The notes beneath the pieces were generated by a model. That model did not search any database, had not been told where the DNA came from, and saw nothing but the letters and a program-made list of their open reading frames with translations. Positions 2,472-61,529 of a DNA stretch of 64,000 nucleotides are shown here, one piece after another. The first letter of the stretch is position 1. Every line of letters begins with the position of its first letter. This stretch comes from Panagrolaimus kolymaensis. Its lineage: Eukaryota > Nematoda > Chromadorea > Rhabditida > Panagrolaimidae. A program made the position numbers and the translations under genes. The DNA lies in assembly GCA_028622995.1 (NCBI GenBank), contig JAJQJQ010000002.1:6448001-6512000 (forward strand). Direction: 5' to 3'.

Positions 2472-3628
2472 TAGCTAATGAAATTTATTTGCATATTTTA
2501 AAATCCGAATTTTTGAAAAAAGGAATCCGCTCTTTGGAATGAGATCCTCTAATTTGGTAGCCATAAAGCTAATGAAATTTATTTGCATATTTTAAAATCC
2601 GACTTTTGAAAAAAGAAATCCGCTCTTTGGAATGAGATCCTCTAATTTGGTAGCCATAAAGCGAATGAAATTTATTTGCATATTTTAAAATCCGAATTTT
2701 TGAAAAAAGGAATCCGCTCTTTGGAATGAGATCCTCTAATTTGGTAGCCATAAAGAGAATGAAATTAATTTGCATATTTTAAAATCCGAATTTTTGAAAA
2801 AAGGAATCCGCTCTTTGGAATGAGATCCTCTAATTTGGTAGCCATAAAGCTAATGAAATTAATTTGCATATTTATAAAATCCACAAACTAATATCCAAAA
2901 TCCAAAAACTAGATTGAGATCCTCTAATTTGGTAGCCACAAAGCGAATGATATTAATTTGCATATTTTAAAATCCGACTTTTAAAAAAAGAAATCCCATC
3001 TTTGGAATGAGATCCTCTAATTTGGTAGCCATAAAGCGAATGAAATTAATTTGCATATTTTAAAATCCGAATTTTTGAAAAAAGAAATCCGATCTTTGGA
3101 ATGAGATCCTCTAATTTGGTAGCCATAAAGCGAATGAAATTAATTTGCATATTTTAAAATCCGAATTTTTGAAAAAAGAAATCCGATCTTTGGAATGAGA
3201 TCCTCTAATTTGGTAGCCATAAAGCTAATGAAATTAATTTGCATATTTTAAAATCCGACTTTTAAAAAAAGAAATCCGATCTTTGGAATGAGATCCTCTA
3301 AATTGGTAGCCATAAAGCTAATGAAATTAATTTGCATATTTTAAAATCCGACTTTTGAAAAAAGGAATCCGATTTTTGGAATGAGATCCTCTAATTTGGT
3401 AGCCATAAAGAGAATGAAATTAATTTGCATATTTTAAAATCCAAATTTTTGAAAAAAAAAATTCGCTCTTTGGAATGAGATCCTCTAATTTTGTAGCCAT
3501 AAAGCGAATGAAATTAATTTGCATATTTTAAAATCCGAATTTTTGAAAAAAGAAATCCGATCTTTGGAATGAGATCCTCTAATTTGGTAGCCATAAAGCG
3601 AATGAAATTAATTTGCATATTTTAAAAT
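2472..3628 (+). repeat. Satellite array, about 93-bp unit, left block (~12 monomers)
   Basis: Tandem copies recur every 92-95 bp. Each contains GAGATCCTCTAATTTGGTAG, CATAAAGCGAATGAAATTAA, TTTGCATATTTTAAAATCCG and a Gly/Ala-free A-rich stretch TTTTTGAAAAAAGAAATCCG. Variants alternate (GCGAATG/GCTAATG/GAGAATG; TTAATTT/TTTATTT; ATCCGAT/ATCCGCT). One monomer near 2870-2920 is disturbed by an extra segment (ACAAACTAATATCCAAAATC). The array stops inside a monomer at 3628, where a retrotransposon begins, and resumes at 4739. Confidence 0.97.
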
Positions 3629-4699
3629 GTTTTTATTGACTTCAAAAAAGCATTTGACTCCATTGAACTTTCTGCTCTATGGAATGCTCTTCAAAAATTT
3701 GGTATTGATCCTGGTACAATTGAAATCATCAAAATGATCTATGCTGGTGGTACATCAAGTATAAATATTGGCTCTTCATCTATCAACATCAATGTCCAAA
3801 AAGGTGTAAGACAAGGAGATACGCTCTCGCCTATCCTCTTTGCTCTTACCTTTCAAACTGCTCTTCATCTTGTCAACTGGAATGCTGGAATCAACATCAA
3901 TGGAAAAAAACTAGGATATCTCACTTTTGCTGATGACATCATGCTATGCTCTCATTCATTGGAAGGTCTCCAATGTTTGCTCAACCAAGTCGCTGGAACT
4001 TCTGCTACTGTTGTACTCGAAATCAACGTCGATAAAACAAAGTGGATGACTAATGCGAATACTCCTGATGGAACTTTACTTCTTGATGATCTACAAGTTG
4101 AATTGGTAAATGAATTTATATATCTCGGTCAACTGATCTATTGGCCTTCAAAACCAAAACGATTCAACAAAGAAATCTCTCGAAGAATATCTGCCGGATG
4201 GAGCTCTTTCTACAAAGCGAAGAATTTGCTGATGTCAAGAAGAGTCCCAATGAACTTGAAAAGAAAATATCTTCATCAATGTGTGCTTCCTGCCATATTG
4301 TATGGATGTGAAACCTGGGCTTTGACCAAATCTGAAGAAGATCGTCTTGCTGTAGCTCAACGAAGAATGGAAAGAAGAATGCTAAACGTGAAATTAATCG
4401 ATCAACATCCTCGTGAATGGCTTCGTGAAAGAACTGGTCTCAAAGATTTCGTTCATCAAGCAAGAAAAAGAAAATGGAATTATCTTCGTAAACTCCTGCT
4501 GATTCCTGACAATCGATGGAATCGTTTACTGACTGAATGGAAACCTGCTGGCAAGAGACCTCTTGGACGTCCTCCAACTCGCTGGATTGATGACATTATG
4601 AAACATACTCAAGAAAAAAATTTCCAACGTCTCAATGTCATTGCTTTGTCTGATTCGTGGTGTCGTTTGTTAGAATCTTTCGTCCTTCGAGACAGATAA
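3629..4699 (+). CDS. Reverse transcriptase fragment of an RTE-type element (5'-truncated)
   Basis: The frame is open from the truncation point at 3629 to TAA at 4699 (356 codons; first Met at 3734). It begins in the fingers/palm part of RT (FIDFKKAFDS), then VRQGDTLSPILF and the catalytic FADD box (residues 65-68 counted from Met 3734). The C-terminal part has the features usual for RTE-like nematode elements: an ILYGCETWALT block, a QRRMERRML stretch and a GRPPTRWIDDI motif. The apurinic endonuclease and the N-terminal part of RT are missing, so this copy cannot move itself. The remaining frame has no stops or frameshifts, which suggests a fairly young insertion. Family placement is by motif recognition; RTE versus a close relative is not certain. 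Confidence 0.9.
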   Translation, partial: VFIDFKKAFDSIELSALWNALQKFGIDPGTIEIIKMIYAGGTSSINIGSSSININVQKGVRQGDTLSPILFALTFQTALHLVNWNAGININGKKLGYLTFADDIMLCSHSLEGLQCLLNQVAGTSATVVLEINVDKTKWMTNANTPDGTLLLDDLQVELVNEFIYLGQLIYWPSKPKRFNKEISRRISAGWSSFYKAKNLLMSRRVPMNLKRKYLHQCVLPAILYGCETWALTKSEEDRLAVAQRRMERRMLNVKLIDQHPREWLRERTGLKDFVHQARKRKWNYLRKLLLIPDNRWNRLLTEWKPAGKRPLGRPPTRWIDDIMKHTQEKNFQRLNVIALSDSWCRLLESFVLRDR

Positions 4700-4703
4700 A
4701 AGA

Positions 4704-4706
4704 TAA

Positions 4707-4737
<31 letters not shown>

Positions 4738-4738
4738 A
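4704..4738 (+). repeat. (AAAT)n 3' tail of the retrotransposon
   Basis: About eight AAAT/TAAA tetramers directly after the RT stop codon and directly before the 3' copy of the target duplication. Tetranucleotide tails are typical of RTE-type elements. Confidence 0.9.
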
Positions 4739-4778
4739 TTTTAAAATCCGAATTTTTGAAAAAAGAAATCCGATCTTT
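4739..4778 (+). repeat. 40-bp satellite remnant between two insertions
   Basis: The sequence continues the monomer interrupted at 3628 (TTTTAAAATCCGAATTTTTG then AAATCCGATCTTT) up to the left end of the next element. It shows that the retrotransposon and the 4.2-kb element entered the same monomer about 40 bp apart. Confidence 0.95.
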
Positions 4779-4792
4779 CACTCACAGAAAAA
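4779..4792 (+). repeat. Left terminal inverted repeat of the 4.2-kb element
   Basis: CACTCACAGAAAAA, perfect inverted match to 8957-8970. Outside it lies satellite sequence ending GATCTTT. Confidence 0.9.
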
Positions 4793-5091
4793 CTGTCCAC
4801 TTTTTTTTCGGAAATTGACGGACCCGTTTTTTTTCGACTTTAAAAGTTGTTTGCGTCATTTTTGTTGTACATTTAGTCAACTTTTAATGGACAAATTTGA
4901 TTGGCTATTTTTTCGGATAATTATGTCCAATACTCAATTAGAAAATGTATTTTTGGAAGGTCGAAAGTTCAAAATTCAAAAATTTTGGTATTTTTCAAAA
5001 AAGACACAAATTTCAAAGAGAATGAGTTTATTAATAACAAAGCCATGGTATACAAAGTAAAAACAAAAGCCTAGGTTAAACAAGGATTCAA

Positions 5092-6169
5092 TTAATCAGA
5101 TTCATCGCCGCCCATTTGATGTTCCATATCACTAGCACGTAATCCAAAGGTGACATTTTTGCCATGGTATTCATTATGAACGAACATTCGATAAGTGCAG
5201 TGGAAGCGAAGAGATGTTGTTGAGAATCGAAAACGTTTGGATCTAAGGTAGTCTTCATATTCCTCGGGAACAATTTCGTTGAAGTAAATTATTGCCTCGG
5301 TTCTTACACATTTTAGAAGATGCTAAAAATTAAAGTTTCATAATATTTTAACTTTAATAAAAACTAACCTCAAGCATGTATCCAAATTCATTTCCAAAAG
5401 GAAGGCCATCCAAAATTAAGACCAAATTCCAAATTGGCTCTTCATATTCATCTGAGAATCGAAGGCAAATGCAGTTTAAGAGATCGATGCGATCAAAAAA
5501 AACCCATGTTGATGTATCCAAGCTAAAAACATATTTGTTCATGATAAAATGCATTTTTAATTACTTACGTTAAACTCTCCATATTCCTAGGTAGTCGCAT
5601 AAGAAGGCCTCGGATGTGTTCTTCAACAGGTATTTGAACCAAAATACTTCCCATGGTGATCATTCTATCCCGAGTTGACATGAGGCGATAAACAAGTTGT
5701 GCACCAAAGAATCCAGCCAATTTTAAGTTTCTTACATACTTCATGAGATCATCCCAGAATTGCATATCGGAATAAACTTCTTGATAAGAAGTATTACATT
5801 TTACAGTAAATTCCTCGGTTGCATAGTTTGAGTACATGTAAGTGTTGAAGTTTCCTTGGTATACTTTCTCCATGGTATTATCATTCTTCGTAACCACAAC
5901 ATGATCATCATAGAGTTTAACAGAACGTAGCCGTGTTTTCAATTTACATCCTTGGTTAGCAGCAATACCATTTCCACGGGTTACATTTGATTCGCCATGG
6001 TTTCTTTCAGAAGATGAAACTTCTCTTCTGAAGTATTCTCGAAGTTCATCTCTTGATGGTTGAGATAACTGAAACAAATAATGAGAAGATTATTCTCAAA
6101 TGATAAAAATTAAAAACTTACATCAGCTACATAGCAAGCAATAGCATCATTGGTAGGATTAAGAGCCAT
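5092..6169 (-). CDS. Unknown protein of the TIR element, gene A (4 exons, 310 codons)
   Basis: Exons 6122-6169, 5569-6068, 5369-5522 and 5092-5322 join in phase (0, 2, 0) and end at TAA (5092-5094). The ATG follows directly on a TTTTTAG acceptor (6170-6171), as expected for a trans-spliced or 5'-UTR-intron start. I do not recognise the product. It is soluble-looking, without signal peptide or clear membrane helix. Residues ~17-60 are charged (REYFRREVSSSERNHGES), the middle is mixed alpha/beta in character and includes VKLYDDHVVVTKNDNTMEKV, and the C-terminal exon ends in an acidic tail (MGGDESD). Exons are visibly richer in G/C than the surrounding DNA. It faces gene B across a 404-bp gap, so a shared bidirectional promoter is likely. 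No DDE/D triad, RNase-H fold signature or zinc-finger cluster could be picked out by eye. Confidence 0.8.
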
Positions 6170-6573
6170 CTAAAAATAAACAAGAGTCACCAATAACTGC
6201 GACCGCCAATATAAATATTATCTTTGTTTCAAACAATTTTTCAAGTAGTAAGTTTACAACAAATTTTTCGATAAGAGTTTATTGCTACATCATGAGGCTC
6301 TTCCACTTTACTGTCGAAATACACCTGGGTCAAAAAAATATGTTCGAATGCCTTACTTTCTGCTTTAATCCATTTCAAAGAAAAAAGGTAAGCTTTCAAA
6401 TCATCTGCTTCGAGAGTACAATCTCACAGCGAAAACGGCTGCCTCGCTGCACGTTTTTTCCAAGCTTTTTGAAATCTTTGCTGATTTAGTTTTTCAAACT
6501 TTTTGCTTTCCTTCACATTTTTTGAGTAAAAAATTATTATTCAATCTTTAACGCTTATTTTTTAGTCTTCAAA
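6170..6573. promoter_or_regulatory. Shared upstream region of the divergent element genes
   Basis: 404 bp between the two start codons. Acceptor-like TTTTTAG sits at the ATG of gene A and TTTTTTAG (to 6565) just before the ATG of gene B, so transcript leaders are probably trans-spliced on both sides. The region includes one half of a 17-bp inverted repeat (6198-6214). No clear TATA element was chosen. Confidence 0.5.
6198..6214 (+). repeat. 17-bp inverted motif, copy 1 (upstream of gene A)
   Basis: TGCGACCGCCAATATAA occurs here, 29 bp upstream of gene A's ATG. It recurs inverted at 7914-7930 inside intron 5 of gene B. It is GC-rich relative to the AT-rich non-coding sequence around it, so a regulatory or protein-binding site is plausible. 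Confidence 0.7.
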
Positions 6574-8574
6574 ATGAGCAACTCTGTTACTATCGTTGTT
6601 ACTGATGCAGCTCTTGCAACTGATGGTCCTCAAACTTTAACTTATCTTTTTTATACTGCGAACACCAAGGATTTGCAGCAACATATCTCTGATACGTTGG
6701 GATTACCTAGGAATTTTGATGCTGTTATCAAATGGAAAACCAAGGATCTCGATGATAAAACGATGGTTACAACAATGAATCCCATGACTTTTTTGATCTC
6801 GGGTGAAATATACTTTGCATCTATTGGTGAGTTGTTTTTGTCAGTTTATTTTATTTACTAATACTAAATTTTTTAAGATACCTGGGCAGACATTGCCACT
6901 CCGAACTTATCGAAAACCATTGCTAGAGAATCAACAAAAGCAACTGTTCATGTTACCGAAATGGCTACTGATGATCTCCAAGGCTCTCTTGAGGCATGTT
7001 CTTTATTTGCTTGTTCATACATTTACTTTATTTTTAGCGAAAATCTTACGATGATCAAGAAAAGCAACTTGTAACCAAGGCTGTAGCTGAAGAAAACCAA
7101 ATGCCTCTTGCTTCACAGAATCAACCTTCCTCTTCGACTCAAGATACTTCGGATACTCTTATCAATCTTACTCTGGTCGAACGTATGTTGATCCCAAGGA
7201 TAATTTTACCGTGCCCATTGCTTCGAGGAAATGCTACAACTCAAGGTACATACCTCGCAAACTTATACATCGCAAACCAAGGCTTAATGGATGATAGGTT
7301 CAAGGAAATGTCGCCCTCTGAAAAAACAATGGTGGAAACTGTAAGTTCTGTTAAATATCTTTGAATTAATCTTATCATTACAGATTGATGTTATTGCGTT
7401 CATTTCAAACCCATCAACCATTGCTGCCCTTGTTTTCTTGCACGACGAATCTTTGACAACTTTCAATTTGAGTCTCCTCACCATGGCTAGAAAGTTTGCA
7501 AAGAAAGCTATTACTGATATTATCTCCGAGGCTTATAAAAAGTATGTTTAGTTTTTCGTTATAAACTAAACTTCTCTTTTAGGACTGAAATCCCAGGCAA
7601 CGCTCTTGAACCTTTGATTTCTCTTATGCTTCAAATGACAGGAAATGCATGGTTTTCAACATTGTTAGTCCATGGATGTCCAAGTCCTGTAGTTATGGCT
7701 GTGAAGAAAAGGCAAGTTCGCCATGCTCTTAAAGCTGGAGAATCACCAAAGATCAAGAAGCAAAAGTTAACCTTGGCAAATATGGTAACCTTGGATATTG
7801 ATGAAGCAGCTGGAGCAATTTCTGAAGCACAAACACCTGGTGAAATGGAGCAACTTGTTGCAAATACAAGGTTAGTTTATTTTGCAACTTTTTGTGAAAA
7901 AATGTGTGAATCATTATATTGGCGGTCGCAATTTGATACACTTGCTTACAATAATTAGATACATCTTTCTTCTAAAACAATAATGCCGCTTTAATTTTAG
8001 TCAATTCCGCTGCCAATGGTTGAACGAAATGGATCAAGATATAACCAGACGTCACCGAAGGATTGAAACCATGGTCTCTAAGTTTTCGTGTTTTGTGAGA
8101 AATGCAACTTTGGTATATTTCATATTACAATACCATAACTTTCTTTTTTACACAATTGTAGCTTCGTCATGACTTCAAGTACACCATGGAAAATATGAAG
8201 GGACTAAGGGCTTTCAACGTTGGGGAAGCTTTACATCTTTATGCTCCTGCAATTGTGACCCTAGGCAAGAAAAAAGGAATCTTTTTGGAAGATGTTCACC
8301 AAGGCCTTGAAAATGATATGCTCCAAGTTTGCAAAACTCTGATTGATCTTGTTCCAACCTACTGCAAAAGAAACAAAAACTGCAAATCTGATCGCCTTAT
8401 TGTGGAAGGAAAAGTAAGTTCTTTTAAAGTTCGTTTATCTTTACTCTTTTAAGCGTTTAGGAGTTTACAAGTGTTCAAGCCATGGCAGATGTCAGAAAAG
8501 ATATCATTTTGTTATATTGTTATTTGTTTTCCAAGGCTTTTTTATTTGTTTTTTACTGTTTGTTATTTATTTAA
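6574..8574 (+). CDS. Unknown helical protein of the TIR element, gene B (8 exons, 531 codons)
   Basis: Exons 6574-6826, 6878-6993, 7038-7340, 7384-7541, 7583-7870, 8001-8112, 8162-8413 and 8461-8574 sum to 1,596 bp with every junction in phase, ending at TAA with AATAAA overlapping the stop. Intron 2 needs a GC donor (GAG|GCATGT). The ATG lies 9 bp after a TTTTTTAG acceptor, a likely trans-splice site. The product is not recognised. Residues 1-85 are Thr/Ser-rich and mixed; 125-160 polar; ~165-310 strongly helical with alternating hydrophobic runs; a basic nuclear-signal-like segment (VKKRQVRH and KIKKQK) lies near 317-335; another long helical region follows; the last exon encodes a hydrophobic tail (VFYCLLFI at the end). 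The layout could suit a nucleic-acid-binding or structural (capsid/nucleoprotein-like) protein, but that is a guess from composition only. No catalytic signature was seen. Confidence 0.8.
7914..7930 (-). repeat. 17-bp inverted motif, copy 2 (intron 5 of gene B)
   Basis: Exact reverse complement of 6198-6214, in the 130-bp intron 7871-8000, the longest intron of the gene. Confidence 0.7.
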
Positions 8575-8956
8575 TAAATCGTTTGATTGAATATACTTGA
8601 ATATGTGAATGACGAAAGGGGTTTAGGCGATTAATGAAATATAGCAGATTTACAGAAAAATAAAAACAAGTCATTGATAGTCCAATTTAACCAAATTTTT
8701 GTCCATAATAATGACAATATGGGTTAGGTTTATATCTAAAGAGGTCCGTTTTTTTAAGTATCATCAGGCAGTGCGTAAAAGATTTTGTCCTATTTTTTTT
8801 TATTATTGTACATTTTTGTGACACTTTTTTAAAGAAATAAAGACGATTTCAACTTCTAAGAGGACTATATAGTCCAAATTGAACAGAGACCTTCTTCTTG
8901 GCGGTTGTCACTGTACAAGCCAATATTGTCCAAATTTTTCGATGATATAGGTACTT
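8575..8956. other. Right non-coding flank of the TIR element
   Basis: AT-rich sequence between the gene B stop and the right TIR. It carries several GTCCAA-type subterminal motifs (about 8676, 8869, 8929) and a GGTCCGTTTTTTT tract near 8744. No reading frame is supported. Confidence 0.6.
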
Positions 8957-8970
8957 TTTTTCTGTGAGTG
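8957..8970 (-). repeat. Right terminal inverted repeat of the 4.2-kb element
   Basis: TTTTTCTGTGAGTG, perfect inverted match to 4779-4792. The satellite resumes immediately with TTGGAATGAGATCC. Confidence 0.9.
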
Positions 8971-10790
8971 TTGGAATGAGATCCTCTAATTTGGTAGCCA
9001 TAAAGCGAATGAAATTAATTTGCATATTTTAAAATCCGAATTTTTGAAAAAAGGAATTCGCTCTTTGGAATGAGATCCTCTAATTTGGTAGCCATAAAGC
9101 TAATGAAATTAATTTGCATATTTTAAAATCCGATTTTTGAAAAAAGAAATCCGATCTTTGGAATGAGATCCTCTAATTTGGTAGCCATAAAGCGAATGAA
9201 ATTTATTTGCATATTTTAAAATCCGACTTTTGAAAAAAGGAATCCGATCTTTGGAATGAGATCCTCTAATTTGGTAGCCATAAAGCGAATGAAATTTATT
9301 TGCATATTTTAAAATCCGAATTTTTGAAAAAAGGAATCCGCTCTATGGAATGAGATCCTCTAATTTTGTAGCCATAAAGAGAATGAAATTAATTTGCATA
9401 TTTTAAAATCCAAATTTTTGAAAAAAAGAAATCCGATCTTTGGAATGAGATCCTCTAATTTTGTAGCCATAAAGCGGATGAAATTAATTTGCATATTTTA
9501 AAATCCAAATTTTTGAAAAAAGGAATTCGCTCTTTGGAATGAGATCCTCTAATTTGGTAGCCACAAAGCTAATGAAATTTATTTGCATATTTTAAAATCC
9601 GACTTTTGAAAAAAGAAATCCGATCTTTGGAATGAGATCCTCTAATTTGGTAGGCATAAAGCGAATGAAATTTATTTGCATATTTTAAAATCCGACTTTT
9701 GAAAAAAGAAATCCGATCTTTGGAATGAGATCCTCTAATTTGGTAGCCATAAAGCTAATGAAATTAATTTGCATATTTTAAAATCCGACTTTTGAAAAAA
9801 GAAATCCGATCTTTGGAATGAGATCCTCTAATTTGGTAGGCATAAAGCGAATGAAATTTATTTGCATATTTTAAAATCCGACTTTTGAAAAAAGAAATCC
9901 GATCTTTGGAATGAGATCCTCTAATTTGGTAGCCATAAAGCTAATGAAATTAATTTGCATATTTTAAAATCCAAATTTTTGAAAAAAGGAATTCGCTCTT
10001 TGGAATGAGATCCTCTAATTTGGTAGGCATAAAGCGAATGAAATTTATTTGCATATTTTAAAATCCGAATTTTTGAAAAAAGAAATCCGATCTTTGGAAT
10101 GAGATCCTCTAATTTGGTAGCCATAAAGCGAATGAAATTTATTTGCATATTTTAAAATCCGACTTTTGAAAAAAGGAATCCGATCTTTGGAATGAGATCC
10201 TCTAATTTGGTAGCCATAAAGCGAATGAAATTTATTTGCATATTTTAAAATCCGACTTTTGAAAAAAGGAATCCGATCTTTGGAATGAGATCCTCTAATT
10301 TGGTAGCCATAAAGCGAATGAAATTTATTTGCATATTTTAAAATCCGACTTTTGAAAAAAGGAATCCGATCTTTGGAATGAGATCCTCTAATTTGGTAGC
10401 CATAAAGCGAATGAAATTTATTTGCATATTTTAAAATCCGAATTTTTGAAAAAAGGAATCCGCTCTATGGAATGAGATCCTCTAATTTTGTAGCCATAAA
10501 GAGAATGAAATTAATTTGCATATTTTAAAATCCAAATTTTTGAAAAAAAGAAATCCGATCTTTGGAATGAGATCCTCTAATTTGGTAGCCATAAACCGAA
10601 TGAAATTAATTTGCATATTTTAAAATCCAAATTTTTGAAAAAAGGAATTCGCTCTTTGGAATGAGATCCTCTAATTTGGTAGCCATAAAGCGAATGAAAT
10701 TAATTTGCATATTTTAAAATCCAAATTTTTAAAAAAAGAAATCCGATCTTTGGAATGAGATACTCACTTTGGATAACCAAAAAGCGTTTG
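8971..10790 (+). repeat. Satellite array, about 93-bp unit, right block (~20 monomers)
   Basis: Same monomer and orientation as 2472-3628, resuming mid-monomer after the TIR element. Segments of several monomers recur in the same variant order (for example around 9170-9460 and 10190-10560, both with a CGCTCTATGG variant followed by ATTTTGTAGCCATAAAGAG). This indicates multi-monomer, higher-order amplification. The right edge decays into diverged copies (GATACTCACTTTGGATAACC at 10757) up to about 10850. Confidence 0.97.
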
Positions 10791-10850
10791 AAAATAATTT
10801 ACATATTTTAAAAATTCAAAAATTAGATTCAGACCCTCTAATTTTTTAGT

Positions 10851-46336: not shown

Positions 46337-47866
46337 CGCGTCGTCGTCTTTGGTGTATCTTAGATTAAAGATATAAATATGAATAGTAAAAATGACAAAA
46401 ACCGCTTTCCAGTTAAATAAAACCGCAAAGAACAAACTTTCTCTTTAAAAATAAGCTTGTGGAAATGGAAAATAAATATTTGAATATTGAAGTCGAAGTA
46501 ATAGAATATCACAAAAAGGAAAAAATAATAACACTAATAATTAAGCAAAGAAATAATAAAAAATGTGGCAGTGATTAAAAATTATTTAAAGAATTTGGCG
46601 GTTTCTTTCCTGGTCGGCGGTTAATATGATTTTTTTATACAAAAATAAAGCTTATTAAAAATAAAGTTCGTCCGTTTTGTTGAAGAAAAAAATATATAAA
46701 AAGAAAAATATGGAAGGATTGATTGGCTCCTTTCTTGCCTTGTTGTTTGAGTATGAGAAAAAACTGAAAAAATAAAAAAATGAATGTATAAAAATGATTA
46801 AAAGCATGAAACATTGAAAAATTGGGAAAAGAAGAAGAGCGAAAAAGGCGATAACACCACGTTGTCGCCGAATGCAAAAAAAATAAAATAATGGGGGTAA
46901 GAAAAATGGAACATTGTTGTAAAAAAAACATAAGATGGAAAAAACAAATAATTGAAGATGAAATATAAAAAATATTGAATCAGTTAAATCTCGATTCAGC
47001 ACGAACGCGCAAAATGGCACAATATATTTACAGGGATCACGAGGTGCAATGCATAGAAATGAGAAAGCTGTAAAATTGCTTTTATCATTAACACAGAAAA
47101 AAATAACCAAAGCATTTTTACAACATCATCTCTCAGACGGTTGTGGTCAAAATGATAACGGAATGATGTTGATTGGACTGTGGCTGAACTTTTCAAAAAA
47201 ATCTTGTTGGCAAATAAATTGTTTATTACTTTGCATTGCGATGATGGTCATTAAATTTATCGCGATCATAGGAATGGAAAAGGTAATTTTTATTGCAATC
47301 AAATATACTTTCTGAAGTTTATTTCTGACAATTTGTAGCTGCAGAGAATATATTTGGCTTTTTTCTTACCTTTACTATACAGGCGTGAAGTAATAACATT
47401 CATCTAACATTTTTCATTCTCAATAATATCAATCCTACTTTTTTTCAAAGCTCTGTAGCAAAAATGCCCATTTAAAAAAAATGCTCACTCTCCAAAATAA
47501 CAATGTTTTTTACATTTAAGGAAGGAGTGCCCATCATGAAAAAGTCTTGTTTGTCTTTGGTAAAAAAACATAAGAAAAAACAACAACGAAAAAATATAAT
47601 GCATTGTAAAAAAATACATACATACAACTTAAAAAAGCTTCAAAAAGAACAAAAAAAATGCAAGAAAAAGGAAAATTGAATGGTCATTTGTCATTTAGAA
47701 TGACTGACTCTTAACGATTCCAAGAGTTTTTGCGCAAAAAAAAAAAAAACAACAAATAAAGGGCAGACAAAATGTGGCGTTTTTTTGGTAGGAAAAAATG
47801 GAACCGAAGAAAAGCTTTTAGATAAAATAAATAAAAAGCAAACAAATAACTAAAAATATTTGGTTT
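46337..47866. other. Upstream region of the large gene, no supported gene
   Basis: This would contain the promoter of the long isoform. A plus-strand frame at 47049-47315 and minus frames at 46635-47196 have no further support. Confidence 0.45.
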
Positions 47867-48190
47867 TGTCACGCGGTGACAGATAAGATATTGGCGTCGT
47901 CGAGGTTTCGGTTGATAGTCCTTGGGAGCTGGTTGCATCTGCTGTAGCTGGGATATTCCTAATAAAACAAGAACATATACAGAAACATATTTATTCAGGA
48001 GACACACACAACCAGCACAACAATAATGTAACATACAACTACAACTACGAAAGTGAAACAGAAGCAAAGCAAACACAAGTATGCAAATAGGCTGCCATCT
48101 TGCTGGCTGTTTCGTTACAGGACAATCAAGAGGAGCGCGAAGTTTGAATGAGAAGAGGACGGAAGTTGAGGGAAGCACCAATATATGACA
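47867..48190 (-). repeat. LTR (3' LTR in element orientation)
   Basis: 324 bp, TGTCACG..ATGACA, reads as identical to 49288-49611. The minus-strand frame from the interior (HFGGGGG) runs through the polypurine-like stretch into this LTR. Confidence 0.9.
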
Positions 48191-49287
48191 TACCGCCACC
48201 GCCTCCAAAATGTGTCCTCACATTTTCGTTGAGCATACATACGACCAAACCACGAAGTTGAAACCATTCACATTTCTGGATCATAGAATTTTCTTTCATA
48301 ACACATTTCTTGGACCAAAGCATCTTTCTCCATATCGGTATCGACATCAGTACAAGACATTAAGCATAAATGCTGTCAGGTTGAATCAAGTCTGCATCCA
48401 AGATTTGTTCCTTCATCATGAGTACCATACGAATTTCACCATCTTCATATTGACCAGCTGACATCAAAAGGCTAAGCGATAGCTACAGGTCCAACAAGAA
48501 CACTGCTGTCATTAAGCATACATCAAAAAAATCAAGATCATTCATAAGAGCCATCGATCTTCACCATTTTAGAACTTTACGAGTATCATATTTGATCGGA
48601 TTACTTCGTCCTCACAAATTCCATAACCATTAAGAACATAACAGCAAGATCATACCATAAAGCAAGCGCAAATCCATTCATCACAAGAATATTTCTTTCT
48701 TCAATCGAGTAGTTCTGGCAAGTTAACATTTTCTCAACCATACTCCATACCATGAAGAAGAATTTTGCGACGAGATACATCTTCATTTCTTCGTTATTTC
48801 TGGAGTTGCAAACCAGTGCAAGTTTTAACTTTTGCCACTTCGTTTCCTATCTATGGGTATCTGTGGACTTACTGTCTGGATCTTGTAACCAGTGCAACTT
48901 TTCGACGAGATAACATTTCATTAACATAACAAAAAAGCATTCATAACACAAGAGCATTAACAATCCATAGAGTTTTCTTTACATAAACAGCAAAGTTTCT
49001 TATCCATTATTCAATCCGAGTTTTTCCATAGGTTCTTTACCAAGTTCATTTTCTTATCTTCCAGTAGTACATCACATTCGTTGTCGGCTTCTCCATAAGC
49101 ACTTCATATTCCACGAGGTTGTTGACTTCGATTCAACCCATAATTCCACGATTGAGATGAGCAAGAGACCATCCGACCATTACCAAGAGTTCACCAGTAT
49201 CATCGTCATCAAATAGTTCAGCCATTCCTTTGATTCCATCGCTGCAGCAATTTCTTCAAGACAGGAACAGTTGGGTAGGGCCCTCCA

Positions 49288-49611
49288 TGTCACGCGGTGA
49301 CAGATAAGATATTGGCGTCGTCGAGGTTTCGGTTGATAGTCCTTGGGAGCTGGTTGCATCTGCTGTAGCTGGGATATTCCTAATAAAACAAGAACATATA
49401 CAGAAACATATTTATTCAGGAGACACACACAACCAGCACAACAATAATGTAACATACAACTACAACTACGAAAGTGAAACAGAAGCAAAGCAAACACAAG
49501 TATGCAAATAGGCTGCCATCTTGCTGGCTGTTTCGTTACAGGACAATCAAGAGGAGCGCGAAGTTTGAATGAGAAGAGGACGGAAGTTGAGGGAAGCACC
49601 AATATATGACA
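49288..49611 (-). repeat. LTR (5' LTR in element orientation)
   Basis: 324 bp, reads as identical to 47867-48190. Followed on the minus strand by the TGG of the putative primer-binding site. Confidence 0.9.
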
Positions 49612-52600
49612 GTTTAATAAGAGCAACCAAGATAATAGGAATTCGAACATATTAAAATTTACCAGGGAAATGGCTAAAAGATTATTCAAAGTTGCAACAA
49701 GTTTACCAATTTTCATAAAATCTATCAAAAATAAATGCAATAAAATAAATTTTCCAAAAAAACGAAGATCACTAAAAAAAATTTTTCTCTTTTTCAAACA
49801 CATATCTTTAAAAGCCTTAAAAAAATATTACAAAAGAAAATAATCCTATCGTTTTTAAACGTGCTTTGTTAAAAAACTTTTTTTTTGATTCCCTCTCTCT
49901 CTTTTTTAAAGACGTATACAAAAGATTCATCCTTTTTTTTTTTGAAATCATAAAAGGATATCGACAAAATCCCTCGCGTTTTTTTTTATTCAATGGAAAA
50001 AAGTCATTTTTTTTATTTTACCAAAAAAAAGATAGACAGAGTAAGGGAGAAAGAAAGCGAACGAGCCAAAAAAACTCGAAGAAAAAAAAACATAAACGAG
50101 GTCGATCTTTCCACCTTCCATTTTTTCTACGCCATAAAAAGGAGGTAGAGAGTAGCCGTAATTCGAAGCCCAAGCAGCAAAAGAAGGAAAAGAAGGCAGC
50201 CAGGTGGCGCGGTCAAAAAATGTAAGGAAAGCTTTTACTTTCTCGTTGTTCGCTGCATCGAACCGAACATCTTTCATTCGCCATCGTCTCTTCCATCGAG
50301 AAAAATGACCATTCTAAGCCAGAGTCAGAGTTAGACAGATAGTAAGAAAGCTAGTAGCAGCAGCAGCTTGAGTCGGTTGTCTCTATGAAGAAAAAGAAGG
50401 CAAGGAAGAAGGAAAAGAAAAAAACCAGTCAGGTCAATATTTAATATTATTTATTTTATTTTTTTTGTGATTCAACTGCGCGAGAAAATGTTGTTGGCGG
50501 CTTGTCAAAAAAAATTATTTTGTGATGTTGTTATATTTTTCAACGTAGGTCATTGAAAAAAAGGATATATAAATATAAAAGGAAAAAGATGGTGGGAAAA
50601 GAAAGAGAAAGACAAAAGGGTAAAAACAATAACATAACATCTAAATAAATTCGATGAGTGTCAAATTTTTTAGTTTCTTAAAACAATGAATGCTCTTGAA
50701 AAAACGAAAATAAAGTAAAATAATAGGGAAAACATCGATGAAAGTAAGTAAAAATATTATAAAAGGGCAACAGTAAAATTTAAAAAAAAATAGACATATA
50801 AATTTTCTTAAAAATATACAGAAATTTAAAAGTTTAGGTTTGAAAGTTGAGAGAAACATAAAATACAAGACTAAAAATATTACACTAGATTCAAAAAAAA
50901 GTAAGAAAAAGTCAACAGCAAAATATAGGCATAATTAGCGAAAAAAAAGAACAAAAAACCGTCATTATTATCATCTGCTGCTGTCTTCACTGAACACCCT
51001 CTTTTTTCGATCAAACCCTTCTCAAAAACAATAAAATAAAAAAGGACATTCTTTTGTTTTGTTTCCCTCTCAATTTTTTTATGTTCCTTACAAGTATCAA
51101 ATACTTGAGAAAGAAGAAAAGAAAGGAAGTCTAACAACATGATCTCCATTTTTTTTTTTGAGATCCATTTAATCCGGTTAGATCTCTCACCTCACCTTTA
51201 TGGAAAAAATCCGCTTCCTTAGTTTATTAAAAAAAATAAATAAAACTAGTTCCTGTATATTATTATTTTTCTCAATGTCACTTTTGTAAACAAAACTTTT
51301 CCATTTTTAAAAAGAAAAAAAAATGTGTTTCAAAAAGTTGGAAAAAAGTAAACGAAAAAAAGAGAAACTGTTTATTTTTAAAAAATAATTTTTTTTGTAG
51401 ACACAGAAACTGGAGAAGCAAGCAACAGAAGCAATTGATTTGTATGTAAGCTTCCAAAATACTTTTATTTTAATGATGAATGATTTTTGAGGGTTTTATA
51501 TTGTCTTTTTAATATTGTAGACTCATTTAAGACAAAAAAAGAAAAATTAATCTTCTCCGATTAATTGTTTTGTGTGAACAAAAAGAATTGAGAAGAAAAA
51601 AGAGGTGTAAAACACACACAAAAAAAATTGTGATTGGAAAACGTCTTCGATAGAAGAAAGATTAAAAGCAAGAAAAAGACTAAATAATTAGGATGGTCCA
51701 AGAGTTTAATCAAAGCTCTTATTAAAAAAATATATGGGGAACTTAAACAATGATGAATCATCCCGAGGTCATATTTACATTTTATCGTTCGATATATTCT
51801 TACGATAATGATAAAAATTTATTAAAATCTCAATGTCTCTAAAAAAACCGAAAAAGTTATAAAAAATACTCTTAAAACCGCAAATCCTATAGACAACAAC
51901 AAAAAAAAGACTGACGACGTTAATGAATTCCTAAATTAATGTTTATTTTTTCTTAATTATCTTTCTAATCCTTCTCGCGTTCACAACATTTTTTTTTCAA
52001 ACATGACTAATCTCACGAGAATAAAAAAACAAAACTAAATCAAATCAAGTTTACTTTTCATTTTTACGACGAATTGAATTTGAAAATAAAAAACCCCTTG
52101 AGCTATTTTTTCTTTCATCCCTTTTTATCTTATGGTGTGCTTTTTTAGAGGGAATAAAAAAAACTGCTGTAAGCTGATGTTTCTTCACCCAAAAACAAAA
52201 ATCAAAAAAGCTATCGATCTCCAAAGTACTCAAAAGCAAAAAAATGAAAATGATATCAAAAACGTGGGTGTCTTATTTAAATATTTCAATGAAGCGTAAA
52301 AAAACCTCTTGAACTTCTTTTTGCAAATAAAAAGGATTTGCGCAATTTGAGACTTTTCCAAACACATTATAAAAAATATTGGAGTAAAAAAAGGGTAGAT
52401 TGCAAACTGAAAGTGCTTTGCTTTTTTTTATTGATATAATAAACTTTTTTTGAGGTAAAGAAGAAAAATGAGGCCAATAATAAAAAGCATTAAAAATCAA
52501 TGATTCATGAACGATAGATACTTGATAACATTTATTTCACCTCTCGTTATTTTATTTTTTGGGACAATAAATTCTTCAACTCAAAATTTTTTGTCAACAA

Positions 52601-60604: not shown

Positions 60605-61529
60605 ATGTCCTTTGTTGAATTAATAGATTATATAATAGCATTAATATTTTCATTTACAACATTTTTTATATTTGGTTCATTTATTGGTTATCGAAATAAA
60701 CATGATAATAATATTGCCATGTCTTCTTCAATGTATTTATATATGGGTTGTTGCACTTTACAAAGCTTTTGCGCAATTTGGCATTTAATTTATATGATTG
60801 CTTTATGGCGAACTGATGTAGTGGTTTATAATGGCTTCATACTTTATTCCACAGGAGCTCCAGCGGTATTTTTATTATTTATAAACGCATTAGCTGTAAA
60901 TTATTTGGGTCTTGACAGAATTGCTTCTATTGCATTTCCATTATTTTTTACCACTCGAAAACGTCTTTATCTCGTTTGCTTTTATGTCGTCTTTTTAATT
61001 TGTCTCATTATTAAATGTTCGTTTGATTTTATTATTCCTGATTTCCCTAATTCTTCTTTAACGAAATGTCAATCATATGGTTGCATGAATCAAAGCAAAG
61101 CTATAGATTGGTTTTTATGTTCACGTTATGGTATAGCAGCTTTTAATTTTTTGGTTGCGATCATTCTTGGAATTTTATTACAAAAACGTTTTGCTGCATA
61201 TCAAACTAGAACAAATAAAGTTATTCTTATCACTGCCATCGTTGCAATTATATTTGATTTTGCTCCACATTTTACTGCTTTCATTTTAGTTAAAGTAAGT
61301 CTTTAATAAGTTACAGTACTTTTTGAAGTTACTTATTTTTACCATTTTTTAGTTATGCAAATTTTCATTTGAAACAGTCGGTCCTTTTAGTTTATTATGG
61401 GGCTCGCTTGATACTGGGATATGTGCGATATTGTATTATAAAGTATATTCAAGGAAAGTCAAAAATAGTCGAATGTTTATTATTGTAACACGCGGGGAAT
61501 TGACGCCTCCTAATATTTCACGACCTTAA
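60605..61529 (+). CDS. Serpentine chemoreceptor, Srbc/Srsx/Srx-like (2 exons, 288 residues)
   Basis: Exon 60605-61294 (230 codons) and exon 61353-61529 join in phase 0 and end in TAA. Seven hydrophobic segments can be traced, including a helix-3 end NYLGLDRIASIAFPLFF, a DR-containing motif in the position of the GPCR E/DRY box, and PHFTAFILVK near helix 6. A Cys-rich loop (KCQSYGCMNQS) lies between helices 4 and 5 and may be disulfide-bonded to Cys near helix 3. The short tail ends PPNISRP. It is clearly of the nematode chemoreceptor type but not of the Sra superfamily. The exact family is uncertain. It is convergent with the Sre-like gene, with 206 bp between stop codons. Confidence 0.8.

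Follow-up and report, generated by a model that had tools for sequence, protein, structure and literature searches.

Results

An element inserted in a satellite array

The window analysed here is a stretch of 64,000 nt from Panagrolaimus kolymaensis (assembly GCA_028622995.1, contig JAJQJQ010000002.1, positions 6,448,001 to 6,512,000 of the forward strand; position 1 is the first letter), and at 4779–8970 it contains a mobile element of 4192 base pairs (bp) carrying two divergent genes, here named A and B. The terminal 14 bp at each end are perfect inverted repeats (CACTCACAGAAAAA), the termini reading CACTCA..TGAGTG as in five other both-ended copies, and the element is bounded on each side by TT, a target site duplication (TSD) of 2 bp. 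Rejoining the flanks with a single TT restored the 93-bp satellite in register and so reconstructed the empty site. Direct reading of both ends and their flanks thus upheld three statements of the first-pass annotation of this DNA: the 14-bp inverted termini, the TT on both sides and the satellite monomer interrupted exactly at either end (Table 1).

Genes A and B lie on opposite strands with consistent splice phases, one modelled B intron being of the GC-AG type. Comparison with the copy on contig C5 (C-numbers denote contigs of the searched genome, 265.8 Mb in 807 contigs) revealed that intact B comprises 631 amino acids (aa) in 10 exons, against 531 in the window. An internal deletion of 463 bp (4655 bp in the C5 copy minus 4192 bp), at about position 8501, has removed the last B exons, and the reading frame continues into former 3' sequence to a stop after 531 residues. 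The two genes with clean splice phases described in the first-pass annotation are therefore correct as to phase, but the second of them is incomplete.

When the terminal 335-bp stretches of six elements were compared with their interiors, the most enriched 7-mers were GTCCAAA (12 vs 2) and TGTCCAA (10 vs 3, raw counts); the enriched GTCCAA motif near the ends resembles the subterminal repeats of CACTA elements.

Table 1. Positions in the window of the element, its genes and its insertion site (exons of A listed in order of transcription).
Feature	Position	Strand	Details
Left TSD copy (TT)	4777..4778		
Left terminal inverted repeat CACTCACAGAAAAA	4779..4792	+	
Gene A	5092..6169	-	310 aa; 4 exons: 6122-6169, 5569-6068, 5369-5522, 5092-5322 (stop included)
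Gene B	6574..8574	+	531 aa, truncated; exons 6574-6826, 6878-6993, 7038-7340, 7384-7541, 7583-7870, 8001-8112, 8162-8413, 8461-8574
Junction of 463-bp internal deletion	8500..8504		Removes last part of B
Subterminal GTCCAA motifs	8680, 8872, 8928 (span 8680..8933)	+	Also 4925 near left end; internal 7678
Right terminal inverted repeat	8957..8970	-	
Right TSD copy (TT)	8971..8972		
93-bp satellite array split by element	8971..10813		About 41 bases of monomer also directly left of element

The surroundings of the insertion site contain two arrays of one 93-94-bp satellite (2473-3628 and 8971-10813), with a retrotransposon fragment and the element between them. The fragment, a 321-aa open frame on the plus strand (3734-4699) with the end of a reverse transcriptase (RVT_1, E 2.9e-14), is of the non-long-terminal-repeat class and lies directly left of the satellite remnant cut by the element; an AATA repeat (4705-4739) follows the open frame.

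Copies of the family and spread of its ends

Besides the window element, the genome holds five both-ended copies (C50, C40, C5, C59 and C159) and one that is 5'-truncated (C1:12.8 Mb), which are 99.25-99.64% identical to it. Their TSDs are AA (C50), TA (C40 and C159), GG (C5) and AT (C59); the C40 and C159 copies have the same flanks, hence one site, and probably represent a single insertion in two versions. Lengths are 4655 bp for C5 and C59 and 4191 bp for C50, and among the seven family loci the 463-bp deletion is common to the window and C50 copies only. Since these two deleted copies sit at different sites, truncation of B did not stop the lineage moving.

A genome-wide count of the exact 14-mer gave 107 sites (53 forward, 54 reverse), compared with three occurrences (2 + 1) of the same pattern read backwards as a control and about 2.3 per strand expected from the base composition of the window. 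Among 100 of the 107 sites there were 33 pairs of facing ends less than 10 kb apart, one pair back to back and none on the same strand. Five of the facing pairs delimit elements of 4.2-4.7 kb and 28 delimit elements of 160-710 bp, three of which had their TSDs read (CG, TA and CA). The search for further copies with these ends that the first-pass annotation had proposed was thus successful, with 2-bp duplications at different sites; its refuting condition, that no other locus would share the ends, is contradicted by the 107 sites and the five additional both-ended copies.

Relatives carrying a transposase gene

Elements in which another gene, T, lies upstream of B were reached through B relatives of 65-76% DNA identity. 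T adjoins B at 9/9 T loci of 70-98% identity among the matches listed; some of these loci probably form haplotype pairs. The more distant T loci showed no B match. For two T+B elements the whole sequence was read (C3:3338268-3344884, 6617 bp; C1:9.4 Mb, 6690 bp); each is flanked by AA TSDs and gave no A match. The right end of the former differs from that of the window element at one of 24 bases, and its left 188 bp are 77% identical. No stretch of the window matched T at an E value of 1 or lower. The T of a C7 copy is open across the whole query, an observation that concerns the gene and not the ends of that element.

T has two N-terminal C2H2 patterns (Pfam E 5.2e-5, below the curated cut-off), followed by a DDE-type core with the motif order DDF, SADN (92 residues on), CRMC (a C(2)C motif), HLPQH or HLMLH (H(3)H) and FEAKH, by which the putative catalytic residues were assigned. 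The complete order, fingers included, holds in both T+B elements read whole, and CRMC with HLPQH or HLMLH is present in the T of X015, X016 and X020, split over two frames by a frameshift in X020. Two T sequences weakly matched Plavaka PF18759 (E 4.5e-4 and 0.0028; 20.0 and 17.4 bits vs a cut-off of 26.3), and one of them Transposase_21/tnp2 PF02992 (E 0.0072; 16.0 bits vs a cut-off of 28.6), to which the other gave no match.

Third-type A genes led to two larger relatives. That at C73:608684-621774 (13.1 kb), with TA on both sides and matching ends, contains A on the minus strand and a further gene, E, together with T and B on the plus strand. That at C43:2018116-2025106 (7.0 kb, TA TSDs) contains A, duplicated finger exons and B, with no T core. 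The TSDs of related A+B elements are AT, TA and TA.

Gene E has no Pfam match at cut-off. At 7/8 E loci, including those of four distant T relatives (C3, C20, C12 and C28), it precedes a T gene on the same strand by 2-4.5 kb; the eighth locus, on C26, showed no T match. Because of this arrangement E has probably long belonged to this group of transposons, and for the same reason the idea that it represents a chance nested insertion was rejected. In the window E gave two weak matches only (E 0.59 and 0.024), both outside the element.

Homologs of A were found at at least 27 loci (23 and four more) and of B at at least 31, all of the matches falling in repeated families, which goes against the possibility, allowed for in the first-pass annotation, that both are single-copy host genes. 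B lies on the opposite strand within about 3 kb at 6/6 window-type and 12/12 second-type A loci.

Several other loci were recorded alongside these. Two A genes of different types occur less than 4 kb apart on C7 (C7:34571-34996 and C7:38269-39157), about 5-9 kb past E; T and B are found on this contig as well, and the pair perhaps represents an A-bearing element nested in a four-gene element. A fourth A type, 51-54% identical to the C43 type over its last part, lies at C6:3779129, C66:800736, C12:2237268 and C4:2676777 with no B match nearby, and these are possible A-only elements. The element at C12:4.59 Mb (L028 and L061) is a mosaic A+B element, its left end (CACTCA..) differing from its right (CACTGA..) and its B being without middle exons. 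Further T relatives, at 34-40% identity and some with E upstream, are other CACTA-type families in the genome (C28, C7:1.3M and 3.6M, C101, C165, C60, C13, C6, C8, C42, C1, C2, C3, C20 and C12).

Similarity and constraint of genes A and B

Neither A nor B belongs to a Pfam family at cut-off. A hit of A to DUF1258 (E 0.027, 14.4 bits vs 33.1) was rejected as chance and was absent from the two other A types tested. Protein database searches with A, B and a B alignment returned no match, an outcome of little weight for a collection whose share of animal proteins is not known, and searches of solved structures gave no credible match. Structure predictions of single exons without relatives were of low confidence (pLDDT, the predicted local distance difference test, 45.6 for B exon 1 and 36.2 for A exon 2). 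B may bear some likeness to animal SAMD3-like proteins, which we take as a lead rather than a result: profile comparison with a SAMD3-like sequence gave a probability of 2.5% (P 0.019), the best of 20 shuffles reaching 0.037.

For B, the ratio of nonsynonymous to synonymous substitution rates (dN/dS) came to 0.26 and 0.30 when the C5 copy was compared with the two T+B elements, and to 0.34-0.55 between the second-clade families. For A it was 0.30 between the C53 and C12 copies (30 nonsynonymous and 25 synonymous changes), 0.33 between C43 and C73 (12 and 9) and 0.38-0.47 between the window type and the second type (dS 1.3-1.5). Judged from the coding sequences, this pattern shows that selection has constrained A and B over the long term, whereas their recent copies look neutral. 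One close B pair reached a dN/dS of 1.5 (3 synonymous, 16 nonsynonymous), and two close A pairs, with nonsynonymous to synonymous counts of 9:1 and 6:0, have too few changes to judge. Values for the window and C50 copies of B themselves (e.g. 0.85 between them) were not used, being distorted by the deletion, which causes downstream bases to be aligned as coding; the long branches of these two copies in the B tree show the same distortion and were likewise disregarded.

Probable exchange of the A block

Over the left 365 bp X023, the A+B element on C53, shares 81% identity with the C43 element (X019); identity is 86% in the part that starts about 70 bp before B and reaches the right end, and the DNA between these parts gave no alignment at E 1e-4. 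Their B proteins are 79% identical and their A proteins 28.5%. The A of X023 is 36.5% identical to the window-type A, though the B proteins of these elements are only 53% identical; when aligned sites were resampled, 164/5000 draws reversed this order of A identities. This ranking of A identities is by itself moderate evidence, and the contrast between 28% for A and 79% for B is the strong part; from that contrast the A block has probably been exchanged between elements in the manner of a cassette. A faster rate of evolution in A alone does not explain why the A of X023 is closer to the window type.

In the window clade, T+B elements can be aligned with A+B elements over the left 135-188 bp and over most of the region that starts about 293 bp before B and reaches the right end. 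By these limits, what stands between the left end and B is T in the former and A in the latter. The B tree, from which the truncated C12 copy L028 was left out, has elements with and without T in both main clades.

Discussion

Nature and placement of the window element

We are confident that the window element is a DNA transposon of the cut-and-paste kind, non-autonomous and recently mobile, and that it belongs to the CACTA/Mirage/Chapaev/Transib (CMCT) clade. This reading draws on its ends, the 2-bp TSDs, the restored satellite, the copies elsewhere, T beside B in relatives, the relative holding A, E, T and B and the long-term constraint on both window genes, all of which the sequences show. 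In that largest relative the four genes stand between ends of this type, first A on the minus strand and then E, T and B on the plus strand; the window family is without E and T and retains A and B, and the window copy has additionally lost 463 bp of B. T supplied in trans by another element, such as the T+B element on C3, would bind the CACT ends and perhaps the subterminal GTCCAA motifs, excise the A+B element and reinsert it at a new 2-bp target. B may be a DNA-binding or assembly partner of T, in a role like that of TnpA in maize En/Spm, and A an exchangeable accessory factor, perhaps directed against host control.

Placement in the CMCT clade follows from ends, duplications and motifs. 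The element has 5'-CA..TG-3' ends (CACTCA, or CACTGA in relatives), and its TSD falls within the 2-5 bp of the clade, being 2 bp at 6/6 both-ended window-family loci (two of which, C40 and C159, are one site), at 8/8 relatives with both ends read and in 3/3 short elements. The clade is published as having C(2)C and H(3-4)H motifs between the second D and the E of its DDE transposase, and C(2)C and H(3)H motifs are found in T, a gene of the relatives that the window element lacks. The assignment of the ends to the CACTA/Mirage/Chapaev group in the first-pass annotation thus agrees with the termini, the TSDs and the T motifs of relatives. Transposase_21/tnp2 did not reach the curated cut-off, nor did Plavaka PF18759, and the ends differ from the TGT..ACA or CATCA..TGATG of Plavaka, so the family was filed neither as EnSpm/CACTA proper nor as Plavaka. 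Chapaev elements duplicate 4 bp of target and were set aside because of the 2-bp TSD seen here; Mirage of C. elegans duplicates 2 bp.

Alternative explanations

Were A or B itself the transposase, the element would be a self-sufficient transposon of a new family, as the first-pass annotation had suggested in one of its two readings. A and B are its only long genes, they match no Pfam family at cut-off and the family has spread recently, all of which would suit such a case. Relatives with the same type of ends and TSDs nevertheless encode a DDE-type transposase of CACTA type beside B, on which ground A and B were rejected as unrecognisable transposases; moreover, the window and C50 copies share the B deletion yet occupy different sites, and the 28 short facing pairs with the same 14-bp ends are too small for such genes. 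We consider a self-sufficient element scarcely credible. The other reading, a non-autonomous element that has captured or carries a two-gene module, is borne out as far as carriage of the module is concerned. That the module is a cellular pair of genes is suggested by their divergent, intron-rich structure and by the failure of the searched libraries to yield a known transposon protein resembling them, and is opposed by the repeated families that hold all matches of A and B (at least 27 and 31 loci), by the adjacency of B and T at 9/9 close T loci among the matches listed and by the presence of A, T and B within one pair of ends on C73. Capture is accordingly very improbable as the explanation; recent capture of host genes was rejected on these grounds and on the nearness of B to A at 18/18 loci, and an ancient capture may have preceded the split of the families.

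An extension of the preferred reading, the trans-mobilised CMCT element, would make A+B elements and T elements lacking A interdependent parts of one system, A being the factor missing from the window-clade T+B elements. Consistent with it, both window-clade T+B elements read whole are without A, each main clade of the B tree includes T-bearing as well as T-less elements, and in the 12 A+B copies read A is free of frameshifts and stops in 10 (including the C50 A, where a 1-base deletion changes the last residues) and B is intact in one. However, A is half the length of B, so fewer breaks are expected in it, and the copies of a family are not independent; better preservation of A than of B in A+B elements was for reason of length not claimed. 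Since one relative combines A, E, T and B, such dependence would not be necessary; an A gene is present as well in the T-bearing relatives of the second clade, and the argument is one from sequence. We therefore hold such interdependence to be improbable. Somewhat better, though still unlikely, are the prospects of a further proposal, that A would be a cassette swapped among elements, in the space from the fixed left end to the B promoter, and would act on the host, for example against small-RNA or chromatin silencing, and that transposase-less A+B elements would thereby be kept as specialised partners of transposase-bearing elements and would not be decaying remnants.

Several observations weigh against the trans-mobilised CMCT transposon itself. 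The T of the C73 element is frameshifted, and that element was read except for 610201-613099 (2.9 kb), so its autonomy is not established. Every Pfam score of T is below the curated cut-off, and A and B have no recognised fold in the models. The dN/dS of B is 0.65-0.71 among the closest A+B copies, near neutral, and the A genes of the window and C5 copies differ by 6 nonsynonymous and 0 synonymous changes, too few to indicate constraint within the family.

Other features of the window

Two open frames on the minus strand (47711-48208 and 49180-49803) share a long stretch that appears identical by eye, an internal duplication about 1.5 kb apart. A partial serpentine chemoreceptor of the nematode Srbc type (60605-61306, plus strand; E 8.5e-6, above the cut-off) fits a nematode host.

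Comparison with known systems

One genome thus contains CACTA-type elements with up to four genes between CACT ends, three of them without a Pfam family at cut-off; its transposase-less members retain two genes, and one gene block has apparently been exchanged among elements. As T+B, A+B and A-E-T-B forms coexist in this genome, the roles of the accessory genes become testable. En/Spm elements have a target duplication of 3 bp, and Kolobok elements target TTAA. Compared with EnSpm/CACTA, Mirage and Plavaka, the elements described here have CACTC or CACTG ends rather than PlavakaA or PlavakaB ends, two N-terminal C2H2 fingers in T, and up to three more genes (A, E and B) without a Pfam family at cut-off. 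They differ from En/Spm in the 2-bp as against 3-bp TSD, in the separate spliced genes and in derivatives that retain two genes of their own.

In the part of the soybean Tgmt account cited here (PMC2613891), Tgmt has a 3-bp target duplication, the deletion derivatives of maize En/Spm are mobilised in trans, its second protein binds subterminal repeats, and both proteins are reported to be required and able to act in trans. As far as that account goes, the present elements resemble En/Spm and dSpm in their deletion derivatives with intact ends, a second protein and subterminal repeats (PMC2613891). Kolobok lineages, as described in the cited section of another study, have lineage-specific accessory proteins, namely KolX, exonucleases, a His-Me nuclease and a RecQ helicase (PMC9587614); the likeness lies in a transposase accompanied by lineage-specific accessory genes, some on the opposite strand, and the difference in the C/DxxH motif which that section gives for the Kolobok transposase. 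A literature search covering titles, abstract openings and top matches found no report of accessory genes of such kind in nematode CACTA elements. Fungal transposons carry TET/JBP accessory genes, according to the portion of the report cited (PMC12730594), and if A does act on the host it would be an animal counterpart of these genes.

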